Assembly: GCA_020629155.1 (NCBI GenBank)
Contig: JAHDDW010000008.1
Location: 62,001 to 126,000, forward strand
Length of the DNA stretch: 64,000 bases
Direction: 5' to 3'
From: Acidimicrobiales bacterium
GTDB lineage: Bacteria > Actinomycetota > Acidimicrobiia > Acidimicrobiales > SZUA-35
Part shown: positions 28,975-49,616 of the stretch, piece after piece
Layout of the letters: every line of letters begins with the position of its first letter
Numbering within the stretch: the first letter of the stretch is position 1
The notes under the pieces: generated by a model
Database searches by the model: none
What the model was told of the DNA's origin: nothing
Seen by the model: only the letters and a program-made list of their open reading frames with translations
Translations under genes and position numbers: made by a program

Positions 28975-29086
28975 AGATAGCTAGATAGGTAGATATTCCA
29001 ACTGTGCTTAAATTATGTTGTCTGTGAAACTTTTTGCTTAAACGTAGCTATAGTTGGATCATTCTTGACCGACAAAGGTGTGGCTA

Positions 29087-30445
29087 GTGAGCGAGTTTGA
29101 CGATTTCGACGAAATAGAACAATGGCAAGGCGAAGAAGACTCTTTGGAAGAGTTCGAAATTGCTATGGAAGAGCCTGTCGAGCAGAAAAGTCGGCTTCCT
29201 TATGAATGGATAGCGCTCGGTGTTGTCGGCGTTTTGGCTGTCGGTTCTGCTATAGGCCTTGGCTACTACCTTGGCAGCTCAGACGATGATGCGAGTGTTT
29301 CAGAATCTAATCAGCAAGCTGCTTCTCAATCGGAAGAAACGCCACAAAACGTTTCAGACTCAGCTACTAGTGAAACATCTGTTTCAACTAATCGTGTAGA
29401 CCCAGCTGCTCCAAGCGTTTATACAGTCAACGAGTTTAATAATGGCGATAGCCCAGCTGCTATCGACAACAAATTAGCTGAGTCAAAAGTCGCGAAAGAT
29501 GGACAAGCGTGGATCGTCGTTAACCAAATAGACTTCGAGATGAAATTAACTGGTCAGGTTACATCCGCTGAAACAAAAGAGGCTCTAGGGAAAGCAGCAC
29601 AACAATATTTTGCTTCTTCAGTAGTAAACGAAGTAACAGTTAATGCCGAACTTGGTGAAGCTCCGTGGATCGCTAAAACACCAGAACTTTTACCGTATGT
29701 CCCGTTTAGTTTAGCTGACGGCACGATGGGGCTTGGCGCTGATGGGATGTATCTAGATGGCGATGTTGGCGATCAAGAAGGTCTTGAAAGGTTCAACGCG
29801 GCGATTAGTGCAACAGAGATACCTGTTGTAGAGAATAAAGTTGCGGTCCAAAATTTTGAGCGTCCTTTGATAGAAATTGCTATGAAAGATAGAGTTTTAA
29901 CTATCGGTGGGGCTATGCCTTCTCAGCGTGCAATAGACAAGATTGAAGAAGGTGCTAAAGAAGTTTTCGGCGAAAATGTTACAGTCGAAATGGAAATCGA
30001 TCCTAATAGAAATGCTACGTACCCTATAGCAATTATGGGAAATATTCTGAGCGTATTTAAGCCATTAGAAAATGAAGAATTTGCACTTGGTTTAAATAAC
30101 AATAATTTTTATACAGAAGTGGACGACGGTATCGCATTCGAACCTGCTTCTTCTGAATTGAACGAAACAGGCTCTGCTTTCTTAACAGGGTTTGCTGTGC
30201 TGTTGACCCCTCTTGAGGTGAAAGTTAATTTGCAAGGGCATACCGACAACGTAGGCGATGAAGAATTTAACAAAACGTTAGGTGAGCAGCGAGCTCAAAA
30301 AGTAGCTGATTTTCTTGTAAGTAAAGGTTTGCCTGAATCTAAAATAGGTACGATCGAGGGCATTGGCGAAAGCGATCCTATTGAACCCAATGACACCGCA
30401 GAAGGTCGGGCGAAGAATCGTCGAGTGTCTGTTCGGGTTAGGTAA
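29087..30445 (+). CDS. Membrane-anchored OmpA/MotB-family C-terminal domain protein
   Basis: About 452 residues from GTG 29087, chosen because AAAGGTG lies 6 nt upstream (a GTG at 29078 is within that site). The order is an acidic cytoplasmic N-terminus (about 45 residues), one membrane helix (WIALGVVGVLAVGSAIGLGY), a Ser/Glu/Gln-rich linker, two BON-like segments (about 140-310), and a C-terminal OmpA-like peptidoglycan-binding domain with LQGHTDNVGDEEFNKTLGEQ and AKNRRVSVRVR. It tethers the membrane to the wall in a Gram-positive-type envelope. Partner is unknown; it is similar in layout to mycobacterial ArfA (OmpATb). Confidence 0.87.
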   Translation: MSEFDDFDEIEQWQGEEDSLEEFEIAMEEPVEQKSRLPYEWIALGVVGVLAVGSAIGLGYYLGSSDDDASVSESNQQAASQSEETPQNVSDSATSETSVSTNRVDPAAPSVYTVNEFNNGDSPAAIDNKLAESKVAKDGQAWIVVNQIDFEMKLTGQVTSAETKEALGKAAQQYFASSVVNEVTVNAELGEAPWIAKTPELLPYVPFSLADGTMGLGADGMYLDGDVGDQEGLERFNAAISATEIPVVENKVAVQNFERPLIEIAMKDRVLTIGGAMPSQRAIDKIEEGAKEVFGENVTVEMEIDPNRNATYPIAIMGNILSVFKPLENEEFALGLNNNNFYTEVDDGIAFEPASSELNETGSAFLTGFAVLLTPLEVKVNLQGHTDNVGDEEFNKTLGEQRAQKVADFLVSKGLPESKIGTIEGIGESDPIEPNDTAEGRAKNRRVSVRVR

Positions 30446-43417: not shown

Positions 43418-43463
43418 AAAGTGTTTGTTGTGTAGTGCTTGAATGCAGCAGGAAAATAATTGA

Positions 43464-43507
43464 CTTGACTAGCTTGGTCAAGATGTCATGTGAGTATGGG
43501 CTATAGT
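43464..43507 (+). promoter_or_regulatory. Operator and -10 region of the Phd/YefM antitoxin gene
   Basis: CTTGAC-N7-GTCAAG (43464-43482) is a perfect 6-bp inverted repeat, and TATAGT (43502-43507) lies 4 nt before the GTG at 43512. Phd/YefM antitoxins repress their own promoters through such palindromes. Confidence 0.5.
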
Positions 43508-43511
43508 AAAC

Positions 43512-43727
43512 GTGTATGAAGCAAAGGGTCAGTTGTCGGCACTTATTGACAAAGCTGCTAGCGGCGAGGAAACAATATTGACGAAGTCGGGTAAGCCCAT
43601 GGCTCGCTTAATTCCATTTAAGAAAAAAACAACGAGGAAGCCTGGAAGGTTGAAAGGAAAGATAGTCATCAGCGATGACTTTGATGAAACTCCTGAATGG
43701 CTAATTAAATCTTTCGAGGGAGAATAG
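43512..43727 (+). CDS. Phd/YefM-family antitoxin
   Basis: 71 residues from GTG. MYEAKGQLSALIDKAASGEE followed by TLTKSGKPMARLIPFK is the Phd/YefM fold core. The family normally opens with a further M-x-x-VNVYEAK stretch; the upstream in-frame codons here spell AIVNVYEAK but lack ATG (an ATA is at 43503), so either GTG 43512 is the start or a start codon has been lost. C-terminal EETPEWLIKSFEGE-type tail is the toxin-binding arm. Its partner toxin gene, 3 nt downstream, is interrupted by a stop. Confidence 0.82.
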   Translation: MYEAKGQLSALIDKAASGEETILTKSGKPMARLIPFKKKTTRKPGRLKGKIVISDDFDETPEWLIKSFEGE

Positions 43728-43730
43728 TGC

Positions 43731-44102
43731 ATGGCCTATCTTTTAGATACTCATGCATTGCTTTGATGGTCTAACGGCAGTTCATTGTCTGAAGAGGCAG
43801 TTGAAATGATCTCAGATGCATCGAATCTTGTGTATGCTAGCGTAGCTTCTGTGTGTGAAATCAGTAGCAAGTCCTCGATCGGAAAGTTGCAAGTTGACGG
43901 CGATCTGTTTTCTATTATTGATGAAGACTTTGAAAGGCTGACGATGAGCTTTGAAGACGCCAAATTTGTGGAGACTTTGCCCCAAATACACAAAGATCCG
44001 TTCGACAGGATGCTTGTTGCTCAAGCAGTGAACCATAAGTTAAAAATCATAACAAGAGATAGTCGTTTGTTTGAATATAAAGTCGGTGTAGTCAAGGCTT
44101 GA
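43731..44102 (+). pseudogene. PIN-domain toxin (VapC-like), interrupted by an in-frame TGA
   Basis: ATG at 43731 gives MAYLLDTHALL, then TGA at 43764-43766, then WSNGSSLSEEAVEMIS and the rest of a PIN toxin to 44102 in the same frame. In the family this position is Trp (LLDTHALLWWL), so TGG to TGA is the obvious change. Downstream retains the acidic residues (E in ASVCEISSK, D in HKDPFDRMLVAQA, D in ITRDSRLF). It is a PIN RNase of a Phd/YefM-type pair that has been inactivated while its antitoxin survived. TGA recoding is not supported, since other genes here use TGA as stop. Internal starts after the TGA would lack the first catalytic Asp. Confidence 0.85.
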
Positions 44103-44290
44103 GAGAGTCGGCTCGAAACTTGTTTGACACGATGGTATTTAGATTTTCCATTGGCATCATCTGGGTTTTGACTGTGTCACAATATAGGGATTCAGCCGCT
44201 GCGGACAATGAATAAAGTACTTGCATCCAAAAAACATTCAGATGCTAGTGCTTTCAGACGCTTTGATGTTTATTGTGTAGTCTGGTACTG

Positions 44291-44677
44291 CTAGACGCTA
44301 ATCACCTTGATATCTGTATGAGAAACGGCTGTTAGATCTGCTATGTCTTTGGGGTCGCCTGTCACGATGACAGGGCTATCTTGTTGTCCAGCTAGAGCCA
44401 CCACGATAGCGTCAACAGGCGAGGTGGATACTGCTCGTTTAGTGGCAGTTCGTAAGAAAGCTGCTTCTCGTGCGGTCAGCTCAGTTATTGTTTCGATTGT
44501 GCATGTTCTAAGTAGCTTATTTTCGTGAAAATCTCGTCGATGATCTCCTGTTAATGACTCGGTCAGAACAGCTGCTGGAACAAGTGCTGGCCAATGCCCT
44601 CGTTTGAGTAATACAGAAAGTTTTGCTCTGTCTTGCGCTAGAGCGGATACGCCGCCGCTATCTAAGATAAGTGTCAT
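44291..44677 (-). CDS. vapC: VapC-type PIN-domain toxin
   Basis: 128 residues with the full set of PIN acidic residues: Asp6 in MTLILDSGG, Glu40 in AVLTESLTGD, Asp89 in TSPVDAIVVALA and Asp108 in IVTGDPKDI. It would cleave RNA (tRNA or rRNA for most VapCs) when released. Start overlaps the antitoxin stop by 4 nt. Intact, in contrast to the PIN gene 190 nt away. Confidence 0.87.
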   Translation of the reverse strand: MTLILDSGGVSALAQDRAKLSVLLKRGHWPALVPAAVLTESLTGDHRRDFHENKLLRTCTIETITELTAREAAFLRTATKRAVSTSPVDAIVVALAGQQDSPVIVTGDPKDIADLTAVSHTDIKVISV

Positions 44678-44916
44678 GCAATTTGGGGGGAGGTATCTAG
44701 TTGGTCAGCCCATTGTGAAGCTTCGTCCATCTCTTGTTGTGAGAGGGGGCCATGTTGTTGGTCTAGTTCTTCAAGATATTTTTGGAGTGCAAGAGTTTTT
44801 GCCTTTTCTTCTAATTTTTTTTTCAGGGCAGCAGAAGCGACGCCCGACATATTTAAGCCTGCTGATTTGGCTTGAGTAACCAAATCTTTCGGTATTGTAA
44901 GACTAACCTTAACCAT
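44674..44916 (-). CDS. vapB: VapB/CopG-like antitoxin
   Basis: About 80 residues from ATG 44916 (MVKVSLTIPKDLVTQAKSAG), a start placed by a TATACT -10 6 nt upstream and by the palindrome that spans it; the frame continues to 44952 but those residues lack a family match. The N-terminal beta-strand plus helix is a ribbon-helix-helix DNA-binding domain and the C-terminal half (ALQKYLEELDQQHGPLSQQE) is the toxin-binding arm. It neutralises VapC and autorepresses the operon. Confidence 0.85.
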   Translation of the reverse strand: MVKVSLTIPKDLVTQAKSAGLNMSGVASAALKKKLEEKAKTLALQKYLEELDQQHGPLSQQEMDEASQWADQLDTSPQIA

Positions 44917-44935
44917 GCGTATAGTATACGCATGG
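44913..44935 (-). promoter_or_regulatory. 23-bp palindromic operator/promoter of the vapBC operon
   Basis: CCATGCGTATA-G-TATACGCATGG is a perfect 11-1-11 palindrome on both strands. It contains the minus-strand -10 TATACT (44928-44923) and the vapB ATG (44916-44914), so VapBC binding would cover both promoter and start; the mRNA is leaderless. Confidence 0.8.
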
Positions 44936-45041
44936 CGTGGCAGTAGTGTCAATGTGCGATCCGTGAATAAAAACAGAGATTCTATCTAATTTTAGGTTGT
45001 GCTTTCTCTGCTTCTCGATACAGTTACCATCTGCAATTAAG

Positions 45042-45054
45042 AATGATTCTCATT
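45042..45054. promoter_or_regulatory. Fur-superfamily (Zur/Fur-like) operator
   Basis: AATGA-TTC-TCATT is a perfect 5-3-5 palindrome inside TTAAGAATGATTCTCATTTT, closely resembling actinobacterial Zur and bacterial Fur boxes. It lies 14 nt before the ATG of the small ORF at 45069, where it would overlap the transcription start region. The downstream gene encodes a His-rich protein, which favours zinc. Zur versus Fur cannot be settled by sequence alone. Confidence 0.55.
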
Positions 45055-45068
45055 TTGGGAGATAGGTA

Positions 45069-45221
45069 ATGGTCGGCGTTATTAACAAGGGAGTAACTGA
45101 TTACGAGATCGGAGTTGTTCTAGATCGTTGGTTAAAGGGCAATTCTCCATCTGATGGGCGAGAACTTGACAAAATTTTTAGAAGTCATAGCGGGTTGCTC
45201 GCATCCCAGATGGATTCGTAA
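45069..45221 (+). CDS. Small ORF, possibly the N-terminal part of the His-rich protein (frameshifted)
   Basis: 50 residues from an ATG with GGGAG and AGG upstream: MVGVINKGVTDYEIGVVLDR and then WLKGNSPSDGRELDKIFRSHSG. It ends in SQMDS and stop. In the other frame, from about 45191, the sequence reads VARIPDGFVKQFLDNRK and runs into the large ORF at 45230; this resembles ASMPGEFLKQF inside that protein. So the true gene may run from 45069 with one base missing or a -1 shift around 45191. No slippery heptamer is evident. As an independent 50-residue gene it has no known family. Confidence 0.5.
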   Translation: MVGVINKGVTDYEIGVVLDRWLKGNSPSDGRELDKIFRSHSGLLASQMDS

Positions 45222-45229
45222 AACAGTTT

Positions 45230-47197
45230 TTGGATAATCGTAAGGTTTCATCTACGTATCGGCTCTCAATAGGAGAGCCGCAAGAGCAGTATAAAAAATT
45301 CGTTGGCAATATGCTTGTCTGTTTGGGATCAATCTTGGCAGCTGATAGTCAAGGCACAGATCACCGTGTTGCAGCGATGCAACAGTCAGTAACTCAGTTG
45401 TTAAAAAGAACAAACTGGGATGATCCACGCCTGACAAAAACGTATGCATCTTTTCTGGCTTCTATGCCTGGTGAGTTTCTCAAACAATTTGGATCGAGCG
45501 TGCATAAGGCTCATAAGTCAAGGGAGATGAATCCGCTGCTACTGCAAACCATGCAGCAATTGAATAGTGAGAAGGGCCAGGCAATCATCGATGGTTTGGG
45601 TTCTGATCCTCGTATCACATTCATTGACTCGCAGAGAGAAGACGCTCACGCAGGCTGTTGCGATACGCCTGACCCTGCTAAAGATCGTAAAGCATATAGA
45701 ACAGATTTGGCAATTAACGCATCACAAACTCTTGCAGACGGAGGTCTTGCCTGGAAGACAGATTCTAAACTTGCAGAGGCCAATGCGATACACGAAGGAT
45801 TAGATACATCAGGTTCATTCTCGTCCATACTACCTTCACTTGCACCTTGGATAACAAAAAGATGGCCGTCTATCCATGCCAAAACGAAGAAAATTTTTGC
45901 AAACCCTAGAACAGATGCTTTTATTGGATTTTCACAGGGAGCGACGCTTGCTGGTGGCCTTTGGGGGACATTTCTTTTTTCAGACACTATGCCGTCGGTT
46001 CTAATGGCTGGACTTCGGGCGACCTTATGTGTTTCGGCTTTCACATTAGCCACAAACATTTGGCGCAAAAAAGCTTTATCGAAAGCTGCCACGTCGCACA
46101 ATAAAAGAGGGTCGATGCTCCATGCCTGGTTTGACATTGGCGGGTCACTCGCAACGCCAGTGCCATATATCGCAGCATTCTTCTCGTCTGCCTCAAATGC
46201 GGCAGTCGTCGAGCAAGGTTTATCTGGAGCAATGGCAGTTGCTGGTACATACTTTGGATATAAATTTATGCGCCCAGCGCTTGCTACGCTTCGAAGGAGT
46301 AGGCCTCCAAAAATAAAAAGATCAGACTCTAAAAAAGTCGCCTTTCTAATCAGACGATACTTAGCAGATTCAGATACGAATGTGGAAGCGAAAGTGTCAA
46401 AAGTCCGATTGTCAGTCGAATCGATTAATGAAGCCAAGATTCATGTGGGATTACCTGCCAGTTTTTTTACTCTTCCCGAGAAGGAGAGAGAAAATATTTG
46501 TTTGGATATCCTTGTGTTGCTGTCGAAGAACTTCCCATTAAAGCAGCAGTTGTCTTTGTCAGTAAGCGCTAAAGACGACAATGTGGCATATCTATATGAT
46601 TATTCTCCACCTCACCAGCATGATCATAGCCATCATCATGAAGAGGTGACTTCGTGTTCTCTTAGTCATGAAGGAGGCGATCACTATGATGAGGCCCATG
46701 AAGGGTGTAGTCAGCACAACCCGCCTAAAGGCAGAGAAACCTGTTCTTCAGGCTTCAATCGGGCTCCTCATAAGGATGTCAAATCGATTTCACCAAGCCG
46801 ATTACAAGAGGTGCGGCATGCCTTCGTTGTGCGCTCTGTAAATGAGCAGCCTATATCAGAGAAACAAGTTGCCGGTATAAAAGAAGCGCTTCGTGAAGGG
46901 TATATATGGGAAGCTGACAGTAATTCGGTTGTGTTCAAGTCTCCACTAGGTAATTCCCCAACTCGGTTTAGTAACAGAAATAGACATGAAACAATTTCTG
47001 ATTTGGAAGTGCGGGCATTAGTCGAGTCGCAAGTTTCAGGTCTTGGGTTTGGTTCAAGTGGATCTACAACTGGTGAAGTTCCCTTCTCGAAAAAATCTCC
47101 AGCAGCCCGAGTTGTAGACCAACAAGATGTAGGAAGACCTTTCAGCCCTCCAATTTCGGAAAAACCAGCGCAACCAAAAACTCTTGCCTCTGTTTGA
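45230..47197 (+). CDS. His-rich membrane protein of unknown family behind a Fur/Zur-type box
   Basis: 655 residues (TTG start as read; a longer form from 45069 is possible). Layout: cytoplasmic-looking helical N-terminus (about 1-230) with AHAGCCDTPD near 140; hydrophobic region (about 232-345) with 3-4 membrane helices (GATLAGGLWGTFLFSDTMPS, GSLATPVPYIAAFFSS, GLSGAMAVAGTYFGYKFM); a charged segment (about 350-455); a His-rich stretch (about 460-500) with HQHDHSHHHEE and further His and Cys residues; and a Ser/Pro-rich C-terminus. The His-rich stretch and the operator suggest zinc or other divalent metal handling. No transporter family is recognised. It may form an operon with the small ORF; the ThyX-like gene follows. 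Confidence 0.65.
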   Translation: MDNRKVSSTYRLSIGEPQEQYKKFVGNMLVCLGSILAADSQGTDHRVAAMQQSVTQLLKRTNWDDPRLTKTYASFLASMPGEFLKQFGSSVHKAHKSREMNPLLLQTMQQLNSEKGQAIIDGLGSDPRITFIDSQREDAHAGCCDTPDPAKDRKAYRTDLAINASQTLADGGLAWKTDSKLAEANAIHEGLDTSGSFSSILPSLAPWITKRWPSIHAKTKKIFANPRTDAFIGFSQGATLAGGLWGTFLFSDTMPSVLMAGLRATLCVSAFTLATNIWRKKALSKAATSHNKRGSMLHAWFDIGGSLATPVPYIAAFFSSASNAAVVEQGLSGAMAVAGTYFGYKFMRPALATLRRSRPPKIKRSDSKKVAFLIRRYLADSDTNVEAKVSKVRLSVESINEAKIHVGLPASFFTLPEKERENICLDILVLLSKNFPLKQQLSLSVSAKDDNVAYLYDYSPPHQHDHSHHHEEVTSCSLSHEGGDHYDEAHEGCSQHNPPKGRETCSSGFNRAPHKDVKSISPSRLQEVRHAFVVRSVNEQPISEKQVAGIKEALREGYIWEADSNSVVFKSPLGNSPTRFSNRNRHETISDLEVRALVESQVSGLGFGSSGSTTGEVPFSKKSPAARVVDQQDVGRPFSPPISEKPAQPKTLASV

Positions 47198-47285
47198 GCT
47201 AGCCAAAAACAACGCAAAACAACAAAATACAAGCAACTTTTTGGTATCCGCCATTTTGGGCATTTATCAGCCTAGGCTTTTAGGG

Positions 47286-48899
47286 GTGAGTACCTATTTA
47301 GTTGAAGAATTTACCGCTGATGAGCAAGACATTTTGCGTCGCTATTTTACTAACTTGGATCAGCCTGTGTTTGCGTTAGTGAATTTGCCTGAGGTTGTGA
47401 AAGGCGCGTTGTTTGCACGCTATTCTCGAACGCAGAAAAGCCTACGCCGTTTGTTTCTTGACGAGTTTGTCGGTGAGCTAGATATCAGCGGTGACGTTTC
47501 GCTTGATGCTTCAGTTGGTTTGAAACGTGCCGAAGAGCTCTATGACAAAGTCTTTTTTGAATATGGTGATGATTCTGTGGCACAGCTTGGTGGCGTCCAC
47601 CTGGCATGTGAACAGGCATCAAATTTGTTAACCAAAATTTTAGAATGGGGTCGTCTTGCGTCCTATCTTGAACAATCAACACGCTATATCGCCTATGACT
47701 CTCGGCCTGCTGGTCGTTATCGATATTATCGAGATCCGCAGCTGCTCGCTTCTCCGTTAGGCACTCGTTATATAGGCGATATGGATCGCATTTTTGACTC
47801 GTATTCTTCTCTTGCTAAGCAGGCAATTGACTATGTGAAAAAGACGACGCCAAAAGCCGATGGTGTAAGCGACTTTGTGTATCGCATGGCGGTGAAAGCG
47901 AAAGGTCTAGACGCTGTTCGAGGCCTTCTGCCAGCTGCAACACAATCGAACGTAGGGATCTATGGCTCGGGGCAAAGCTATGAGCAGTTGCTGCTGCGTA
48001 TGCAGGCCGACCCATTGCCTGAAGCCAGGCACTATGGTCAGCTTATACTCACAGAGCTGCGCAAAGTTATTCCTTCATTTGTTCGACGTGTCGATCTTAA
48101 AGACCGAGGCATTGTCACTAGCAAGTATTTCGAAGCGAATCGATCAGCTACGGCAGCACTGTACGATGAACTTGTCGGCCATAGCGCCGAGCCTGACACC
48201 GAAGAAAGTGTGCAGCTTATCGATTTTGACCCAGATGCTGAGATAAAGCTTGTTGCATCTATTCTTTATAGCCATTCAAATCGGAGCGAAGCAGAGCTTG
48301 AAAAAATAGCGGCGCAAATGTCGATAGAAGACAGGACAAGAGTAATAACGTCGTATGTGGGGGAGCGGTCGAACCGTCGTCATCGCCCAGGGCGAGCTTT
48401 TGAACGGCCATATTATCGCTTCGATGTGCTAGCAGATTATGGTGCATTTAGAGACCTTCAGCGTCATCGCATGTTGACCTTAGAATGGCAAAAACTCAAT
48501 CCATCGCACGGTTTTGTGCGGCCAGAACTTGTTGACGAGGCTGGGCTACGTGAACCGTTTGACGAGGCTGTGGGTCGTTCTAGAGAGCTGCACGACTTGC
48601 TGGTCGACGAGTTTCCTACACAAGCATCATATGCGGTTTCTATGGCGTACAAGGTTCGTTTCAATTTCTATCTTAACGCACGCTCAGCTATGCACACCTT
48701 GGAGCTTCGTAGTGCGCCACAGGGCCACCCAGCGTATCGGCGTGTTGCCCAGCAGATGCATACGCTTATCGCTTCTCAGGCGGGCCACAAGGCTATAGCG
48801 GCAGCGATGAGCTATGTAAACCATAACTCGGAGCTAGATTTAGAACGGCTTGATGCTGAAAGCCGTGCTGAGGCGAAGCGAGAAGCAGCCACTAAGTAA
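47286..48899 (+). CDS. Double-domain ThyX-like (FAD-dependent thymidylate synthase family) protein
   Basis: About 537 residues from GTG 47286 (MSTYLVEEFTADEQ); TAGGCT lies 7 nt before it. The N-terminal half contains EWGRLASYLEQSTRYIAYDS and the C-terminal half FRDLQRHRMLTLEWQKLN plus RFNFYLNARSAMHTLELRSA, each a diverged copy of the ThyX domain. The canonical motif RHRxxSxNExSxRY is split or altered in both copies (QSTRY in the first, RHRMLTLEWQ in the second). ThyX makes dTMP from dUMP with FAD and methylene-tetrahydrofolate. Two-domain forms of this length exist in several phyla, but whether this one makes dTMP is open. No thyA was seen in the window. Confidence 0.78.
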   Translation: MSTYLVEEFTADEQDILRRYFTNLDQPVFALVNLPEVVKGALFARYSRTQKSLRRLFLDEFVGELDISGDVSLDASVGLKRAEELYDKVFFEYGDDSVAQLGGVHLACEQASNLLTKILEWGRLASYLEQSTRYIAYDSRPAGRYRYYRDPQLLASPLGTRYIGDMDRIFDSYSSLAKQAIDYVKKTTPKADGVSDFVYRMAVKAKGLDAVRGLLPAATQSNVGIYGSGQSYEQLLLRMQADPLPEARHYGQLILTELRKVIPSFVRRVDLKDRGIVTSKYFEANRSATAALYDELVGHSAEPDTEESVQLIDFDPDAEIKLVASILYSHSNRSEAELEKIAAQMSIEDRTRVITSYVGERSNRRHRPGRAFERPYYRFDVLADYGAFRDLQRHRMLTLEWQKLNPSHGFVRPELVDEAGLREPFDEAVGRSRELHDLLVDEFPTQASYAVSMAYKVRFNFYLNARSAMHTLELRSAPQGHPAYRRVAQQMHTLIASQAGHKAIAAAMSYVNHNSELDLERLDAESRAEAKREAATK

Positions 48900-49148: not shown

Positions 49149-49616
49149 ATGAGTGATGATCTGGAAACAGAAGAAGAGAACGGTCTTGAAGAAGATTTGC
49201 TAGAAGATCCTGATGAAGATCTCCTTGAAGATCTTGAAGACCTTGATGAACTTACTTCTGATATAGAAGATGATGATCTTGAAGACGATTTTGATGAAGA
49301 TGAAGAAGACATCAGTTCGGCGAAGCCTGCTAGCTCTAAAACAGGTGATGACGATGACGACGAAGAAGACGAAGAAGAGCTTGAGGCTGACCTAGACGCG
49401 ATATTGCGTGACCGTATTGCAAGCTCAGAAGATGACGACGAAGAAGACGAAGACAGTGCTAAAAGCACCTCTAAACCAGTTGTTACTACTGGCGGTTTTC
49501 CTTGTCCTAGCTGTTTCCTGTCAATAAATCGTTCAATCGCCGAATTAGAGAAAGATCCTTATTGTCCCAATTGTGGCGATTATGTCGAGGTTTCTGCCTT
49601 GCTTGTTAAAAGCTGA
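49149..49616 (+). CDS. Acidic protein with DUF4193-like C-terminal zinc ribbon
   Basis: 155 residues. Residues 1-105 are dominated by Asp/Glu (runs such as DDDDDEEDEEELEADLDAIL); residues 115-150 form a zinc ribbon GGFPCPSCFLSINRS followed by CPNCGDYVEV. This matches the pattern of DUF4193, a small family restricted to actinobacteria. GAGG precedes ATG by 8 nt. Function unknown; a nucleic-acid mimic or RNA polymerase-associated role has been proposed for similar acidic zinc-ribbon proteins, which remains inference. Confidence 0.82.
   Translation: MSDDLETEEENGLEEDLLEDPDEDLLEDLEDLDELTSDIEDDDLEDDFDEDEEDISSAKPASSKTGDDDDDEEDEEELEADLDAILRDRIASSEDDDEEDEDSAKSTSKPVVTTGGFPCPSCFLSINRSIAELEKDPYCPNCGDYVEVSALLVKS

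Follow-up and report, generated by a model that had tools for sequence, protein, structure and literature searches.

A probable Zur-repressed, very diverged zinc protein of the CDF type in a lineage-specific insert of an Acidimicrobiales genome

A 64,000-nucleotide stretch of DNA (the window) from an Acidimicrobiales (Actinomycetota) assembly of 3.17 Mb and 59 contigs carries, directly downstream of a Zur box, what is probably a single Zur-repressed and frameshifted gene for a very diverged zinc CDF of the HxxxD/HxxxD type, made when zinc is scarce in order to move or hold the metal. Such a gene would run from the ATG at 45069 to the stop at 47197 across a single −1 frameshift, real or mis-assembled. 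In its product, about 200 helical N-terminal residues would be followed by a CDF core, an abbab domain in the cytosol, a tail rich in His and Cys and a C-terminal extension. CDFs usually export, and a starvation regulon is not where one would look for them; a CDF relative repressed by Zur comes as a surprise, since cells do not normally make exporters at zinc scarcity. The features on which the analysis rests are the following.

43418–47285, strand not assigned: lineage-specific insert between the dagK-like and ThyX-like genes, holding two toxin-antitoxin pairs and the gene of interest
45038–45052, forward strand: Zur box TAAGAATGATTCTCA, 21.8 bits by a position weight matrix (PWM) of zur/znu-locus boxes
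45069–45221, forward strand: 50-codon ORF whose ATG lies 16 nt past the Zur box; likely N-terminus, cut by a frameshift at about 45192–45194
45191–47197, forward strand: main open frame, 668 codons from 45191 and 655 residues from the TTG at 45230; probably CDF-derived, with N- and C-terminal extensions
45683–46342, forward strand: CDF-like membrane core, residues 165–384, TM1–TM6 equivalents (from the CDF of locus L110 and an HMM of HxxxD CDFs)
45791–45805, forward strand: TM2-type zinc motif H201-E-G-L-D205 (HxxxD), aligned with the six best-scoring CDFs
46121–46135, forward strand: TM5-type zinc motif H311-A-W-F-D315 (HxxxD), aligned with the same six CDFs
46313–46615, forward strand: predicted abbab (alpha-beta-beta-alpha-beta) domain directly past TM6, residues 375–475, pLDDT up to 80 per 10-residue block
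46613–46717, forward strand: His/Cys-rich segment HQHDHSHHHEEVTSCSLSHEGGDHYDEAHEGCSQH, residues 475–509, directly past the abbab domain, read from the sequence
46718–47194, forward strand: C-terminal extension, residues 510–668, no family match

The split gene and its genomic setting

The 50-codon and 655-residue ORFs described in an earlier, sequence-only reading are present, at 45069–45221 and 45230–47197 (TTG start); most likely they belong to one gene, interrupted by a single −1 frameshift at GGG 45192–45194. A codon-usage score derived from the genes of the window prefers frame 0 until about 45190 and frame 2 from there on; given this switch, a single frameshifted gene is the best reading of the two ORFs. 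Reading one G twice in the overlap of the ORFs lets HSG run unbroken into VARIPDGFVKQF. The interval bounded by the stops of frame 2 (45188) and frame 0 (45219) showed no canonical slippery heptamer; an indel or an assembly error is therefore preferred over programmed frameshifting, which is disfavoured, and the shift may be biological or possibly an error of assembly. Coding potential per codon (0.093) falls at the low edge of the known genes of the window, for which the minimum is 0.092 and the median 0.188. The antisense ORF at 45646–46437 had no family match and was taken as a shadow ORF.

The dagK-thyX gap spans 3.87 kb in the window vs about 20–120 bp in 17 family members, and the gene order tatA-tatC-helicase-dagK-thyX is retained in relatives. 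The insert consists of the Zur-box gene and two toxin-antitoxin pairs, Phd/PIN and, on the opposite strand, CcdA/PIN; judged by this comparison of gene order, the Zur-box gene is, together with the insert, a lineage-specific acquisition. A search for orthologues, which the sequence-only reading had proposed, returned none by tblastn in 36 genomes of the same family or in about 800 phylum genomes (order and phylum samples), and the plasmids and phages searched, together with peptide scans of viral and genome contigs, likewise yielded no orthologue. Other weak tblastn matches proved, when read out, to be unrelated proteins or stop-ridden frames, one pair resembling a Tad-type membrane protein, and three phosphoglycerate-kinase-like matches to residues 28–145 came from related genomes, amounting to one correlated chance match with no Pfam support.

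Within the insert, 43512–44102 encodes a Phd/YefM-like antitoxin (E 8e-7, slightly below its cut-off) followed by a PIN-domain toxin, and 44291–44952, on the reverse strand, encodes a CcdA-type antitoxin whose partner is a PIN-domain protein, without CcdB. A strong promoter-like site, TTGACA-18-TATACT, overlaps the start of the CcdA-type antitoxin and is divergent from the Zur-box gene. On the downstream side, 47286–48899 encodes a long ThyX-type protein (about 537 residues, two Thy1 stretches) that is conserved at 60–74% identity in 40 of the 41 genomes searched; its GTG at 47286 agrees with relatives, and the listed start at 47184 is too early. About 6 kb separates dagK from thyX at locus L049 (G038:C1:2288000-2304000), which belongs to a different family of the order, and insertions may therefore recur at this junction. 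L128, a record titled as a Bifidobacterium breve MAG, also encodes a ThyX of Acidimicrobiales type (66% identity), and that bin is probably mislabelled. Adjoining ThyX in the window and, as a conserved neighbour, in many relatives is a very acidic protein (49149–49616) with D/E runs and a C-terminal four-cysteine zinc-ribbon-like motif, CPSC...CPNC, for which Pfam gave no match. Farther away, 29078–30445 encodes an OmpA-domain protein with a BON-like stretch, here in an actinobacterial genome; an Rfam search of the window returned no match.

The Zur box and its counterparts at the znu genes

The palindrome that the sequence-only reading placed before the 50-codon ORF and called Fur/Zur-type is real. 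By sequence comparison it is a Zur box, with equivalents at znuA and znuC/znuB of the same genome and the same box at the znuA of relatives. The genome encodes one Fur-family protein, on contig C58, in a cluster ordered znuA-zur-znuC-znuB by Pfam assignment, and since this sole Fur-family gene is flanked by znuA, znuC and znuB, we take the regulator to be Zur. The box TAAGAATGATTCTCA has one mismatch to the consensus TGAnAATnATTnTCA and is the sole site in the window with one mismatch or fewer. Across the whole genome 18 such sites were counted vs 5 for a reversed control pattern; two of the 18 belong to the znu cluster, one before znuA and one between znuC and znuB, and most others fall within coding genes. 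A PWM was derived from the zur/znu-locus boxes of this genome and its relatives; the window box was left out of it, but a box of identical sequence from G043 was included. With this PWM the window box equals the znuC/znuB box at 21.8 bits, followed by the znuA box at 19.5 and the next site at 16.3, so that these three are the top-scoring members of the 18. The next best site in the window reached 13.8 bits, and 6 Mb of random sequence held no site at 21.8 bits. Among relatives, the znuA box of the same-genus genome G001, TGAGAATGATTCTCA, is the exact consensus, and that of G043 is the exact reverse complement of the window box.

The distance from box to start codon is 16 nt at the window gene and 18 nt at the genome's own znuA, and GGGAG stands at 45057–45061, between the box and the ATG; the ribosome-binding site is intact. 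Placement of the box over the start, as at znuA, predicts repression by zinc-loaded Zur and hence induction at zinc scarcity. Zinc-loaded Zur, bound to a box that overlaps the promoter/start region, would then repress the gene together with znuABC, and the protein would be made as zinc falls.

The CDF-like core and the flanking domains

The view of the sequence-only reading that no known metal transporter family fits proved wrong, as the core aligns colinearly over TM1–TM6 with zinc CDFs of the HxxxD/HxxxD type. A blind tblastn search of 396 phylum genomes gave one weak match (E 0.0053, residues 166–377) to what was found to be a genuine CDF, at L110; against this protein, residues 165–384 gave a BLASTP E of 7e-6 and a Smith-Waterman score of 95, with shuffled sequences at 37.7 ± 5.1 and a maximum of 60. 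Because the L110 CDF had been picked as the best match, the relationship was retested with CDFs fetched solely by Pfam domain, of which two in about 30 reached z values of 9.5–10.4; non-CDF ORFs not fetched through the orphan stayed at or below about 6, and some non-CDF proteins fetched through it reached up to 11. The six best-scoring CDFs shared one register, with their TM2 HxxxD motif on H201/D205 and their TM5 HxxxD motif on H311/D315. An HMM of motif-selected HxxxD CDFs, with L110 excluded, gave 12.5 bits over residues 167–378, above all non-CDF controls (best 10.5), and none of 5000 block shuffles scored as high, the core reaching 14.2 vs a shuffle maximum of 8.8.

General family profiles were less discriminating. 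An HMM of all CDFs scored the protein no better than some TatC proteins, separation being obtained solely with the HxxxD subset, and hhalign with a general CDF alignment was not significant (P 0.22). The sole whole-protein match in NCBIfam was the CDF superfamily TIGR01297 (E 0.03–0.13), at 11.5–13.5 bits vs a curated cut-off of 82 bits, and Pfam Cation_efflux (PF01545, cut-off 26.6 bits) gave no match; searches of PHROGs and PADLOC produced nothing useful. The general CDF HMM cannot separate the protein from TatC, and identity to known CDFs is about 23% at best; we judge residues 165–384 to be a very diverged CDF of the HxxxD/HxxxD zinc subfamily, a relationship that in our judgement is real and very distant.

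The six CDFs have 37 invariant columns, and the protein agrees with them at 13, which cover the four site-A ligands as well as Trp258, Asn289 and Ser319. The other 24 are lost; losses include the invariant Gly before TM3 (Ala237 here), the TM6 Asp and the His ligands of the C-terminal domain. The CDF signature that ends in the invariant Gly before TM3 (PMC1868760) is absent, E196 and N198 also breaking its pattern. The several membrane helices read earlier from the sequence are weak by hydropathy, with only one segment above 1.2 on the Kyte-Doolittle scale over 19 residues and four marginal segments at about 1.0–1.6, and the TM1 and TM2 equivalents are barely hydrophobic. Homology to a six-helix family supports such helices.

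Past TM6, the predicted abbab domain superposes (VIA Z) on YiiP 5vrf at 6.7, CzrB 3byp at 6.2 and MamB 6qfj at 5.8, values tied with those of unrelated KH-like folds, and the metal-binding His positions of CDF C-terminal domains are replaced in it. Both sequence clusters singled out in the earlier reading were located, in the numbering of the 655-residue ORF: the CC pair at residues 143–144 and the dense His segment HQHDHSHHHEE at residues 462–472. In most zinc CDFs, His-rich stretches occur at the termini or in the TM4–TM5 loop (PMC1868760). The full-length model has a mean pLDDT of 42, with the membrane part at low confidence, and Foldseek searches with both models gave no match at E ≤0.001. 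A tetrahedral site formed by H201, D205, H311 and D315, together with the His/Cys-rich tail, would bind zinc and move or hold it; the likeliest roles may be to ration zinc to extracytoplasmic sites or to guard against a zinc surge after de-repressed uptake.

Competing explanations and relation to known systems

The main rival, which we consider unlikely, is that the gene is a laterally acquired CDF in decay, which has lost helices, is now frameshifted and is held in place by the flanking toxin-antitoxin pairs. The single frameshift, the low coding score, the loss of 24 of the 37 invariant columns and of TM1/TM2 hydrophobicity, and the absence of the gene from all relatives examined are what such decay would leave. 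Against this, a frame of about 667 codons has stayed open at a divergence that puts identity to known CDFs at about 23%, the box and the ribosome-binding site are intact, and the frameshift is possibly an assembly error; moreover, the metal ligands are kept four out of four vs 13 of 37 for the invariant columns, a selectivity with a chance of about 0.01 by a hypergeometric estimate. That the protein is not a CDF at all, being instead an orphan unrelated to known families or a relative of the serine hydrolase FSH1 with a chance similarity to CDFs, seems highly improbable. FSH1 is the best Pfam match (E 0.0007–0.006, below the cut-off; 0.006 for the whole protein), the general CDF HMM lies at background, and the model is of low confidence in the membrane part, but the FSH1 match covers only 55 residues around GFSQGA (profile positions 99–152 of 211) in a region predicted to be helical, lacks the rest of the triad and has no strand predicted before the elbow, so we rejected it as a hydrolase. 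The CDF alignment, by contrast, extends over 210–220 residues in one register, includes the four ligands and scores beyond shuffles and control ORFs.

The regulation could also be read the other way, with Zur activating the gene at high zinc, as for Streptomyces coelicolor zitB, and the protein serving as an ordinary-purpose zinc exporter. Actinobacteria do have Zur-activated CDF exporters (PMC5472717; PMC6103462 regulon table) and the core is that of a CDF, yet the geometry makes this improbable: the zitB box lies 8 nt upstream of the −35 element, with transcription starting 50 nt before the start codon (PMC5472717), whereas in the window 16 nt separate the box from the ATG, much as at znuA, so that no promoter serving this start could be located downstream of the box. 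A Zur site with two mismatches or fewer is absent from both ordinary CDF genes of the genome, and likewise from 31 CDF loci in relatives and in the genome itself. The reading as a Zur-repressed, very diverged zinc CDF stands as the best explanation. In a more specific form, put forward tentatively, the protein would be derived from a CDF and serve in zinc starvation, under Zur repression shared with znuABC: the transport site would be kept, a large His/Cys-rich tail would have replaced the regulatory C-terminal His ligands, and zinc would be taken up, mobilised or rationed instead of being detoxified.

With zinc CDF exporters of the ZitB/CzcD type (HxxxD in TM2 and TM5; PF01545, TIGR01297) the protein shares a colinear TM1–TM6 core, the four site-A ligands, an Asn in TM4, a predicted abbab domain past TM6 and a His-rich terminal segment (PMC1868760). 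It departs from them in its identity of about 23%, in the loss of the signature, the invariant Gly, the TM6 Asp and the C-terminal-domain His ligands, and in its weakly hydrophobic TM1 and TM2, large N- and C-terminal additions and Zur-type repression geometry. The gene resembles zitB (PMC5472717) in being an actinobacterial CDF gene that carries a Zur box; unlike the activated zitB, whose box stands upstream of the −35, it has its box over the start region, as in znuA. For an exporter fold induced under scarcity, a eukaryotic counterpart may be Saccharomyces cerevisiae Zrg17, a non-canonical CDF of the ZRG17/MSC2-type pair that rises under zinc deficiency (PMC5864093, PMC1868760). The likeness is one of description: both are diverged CDFs, expressed under zinc deficiency in yeast and predicted to be so here, whereas the ZRG17/MSC2 system is eukaryotic and organellar and the HxxxD pattern, absent from Zrg17-like sequences, is kept in the window protein.

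A narrow search of the open-access literature found no description of a Zur-repressed bacterial CDF; in the papers examined, bacterial CDFs with a link to Zur are activated at high zinc. A Zur regulon that includes a diverged CDF is not categorically new; what would be new is to find repression-type box placement, a kept metal site, large additions and the loss of the signature together. The gene poses the question of what role a transporter with the metal site of an exporter would have in a zinc-starved cell. If the proposed reading is true, the CDF fold would be reusable for zinc scarcity, and very diverged CDFs would be hiding among orphan genes that family profiles miss.
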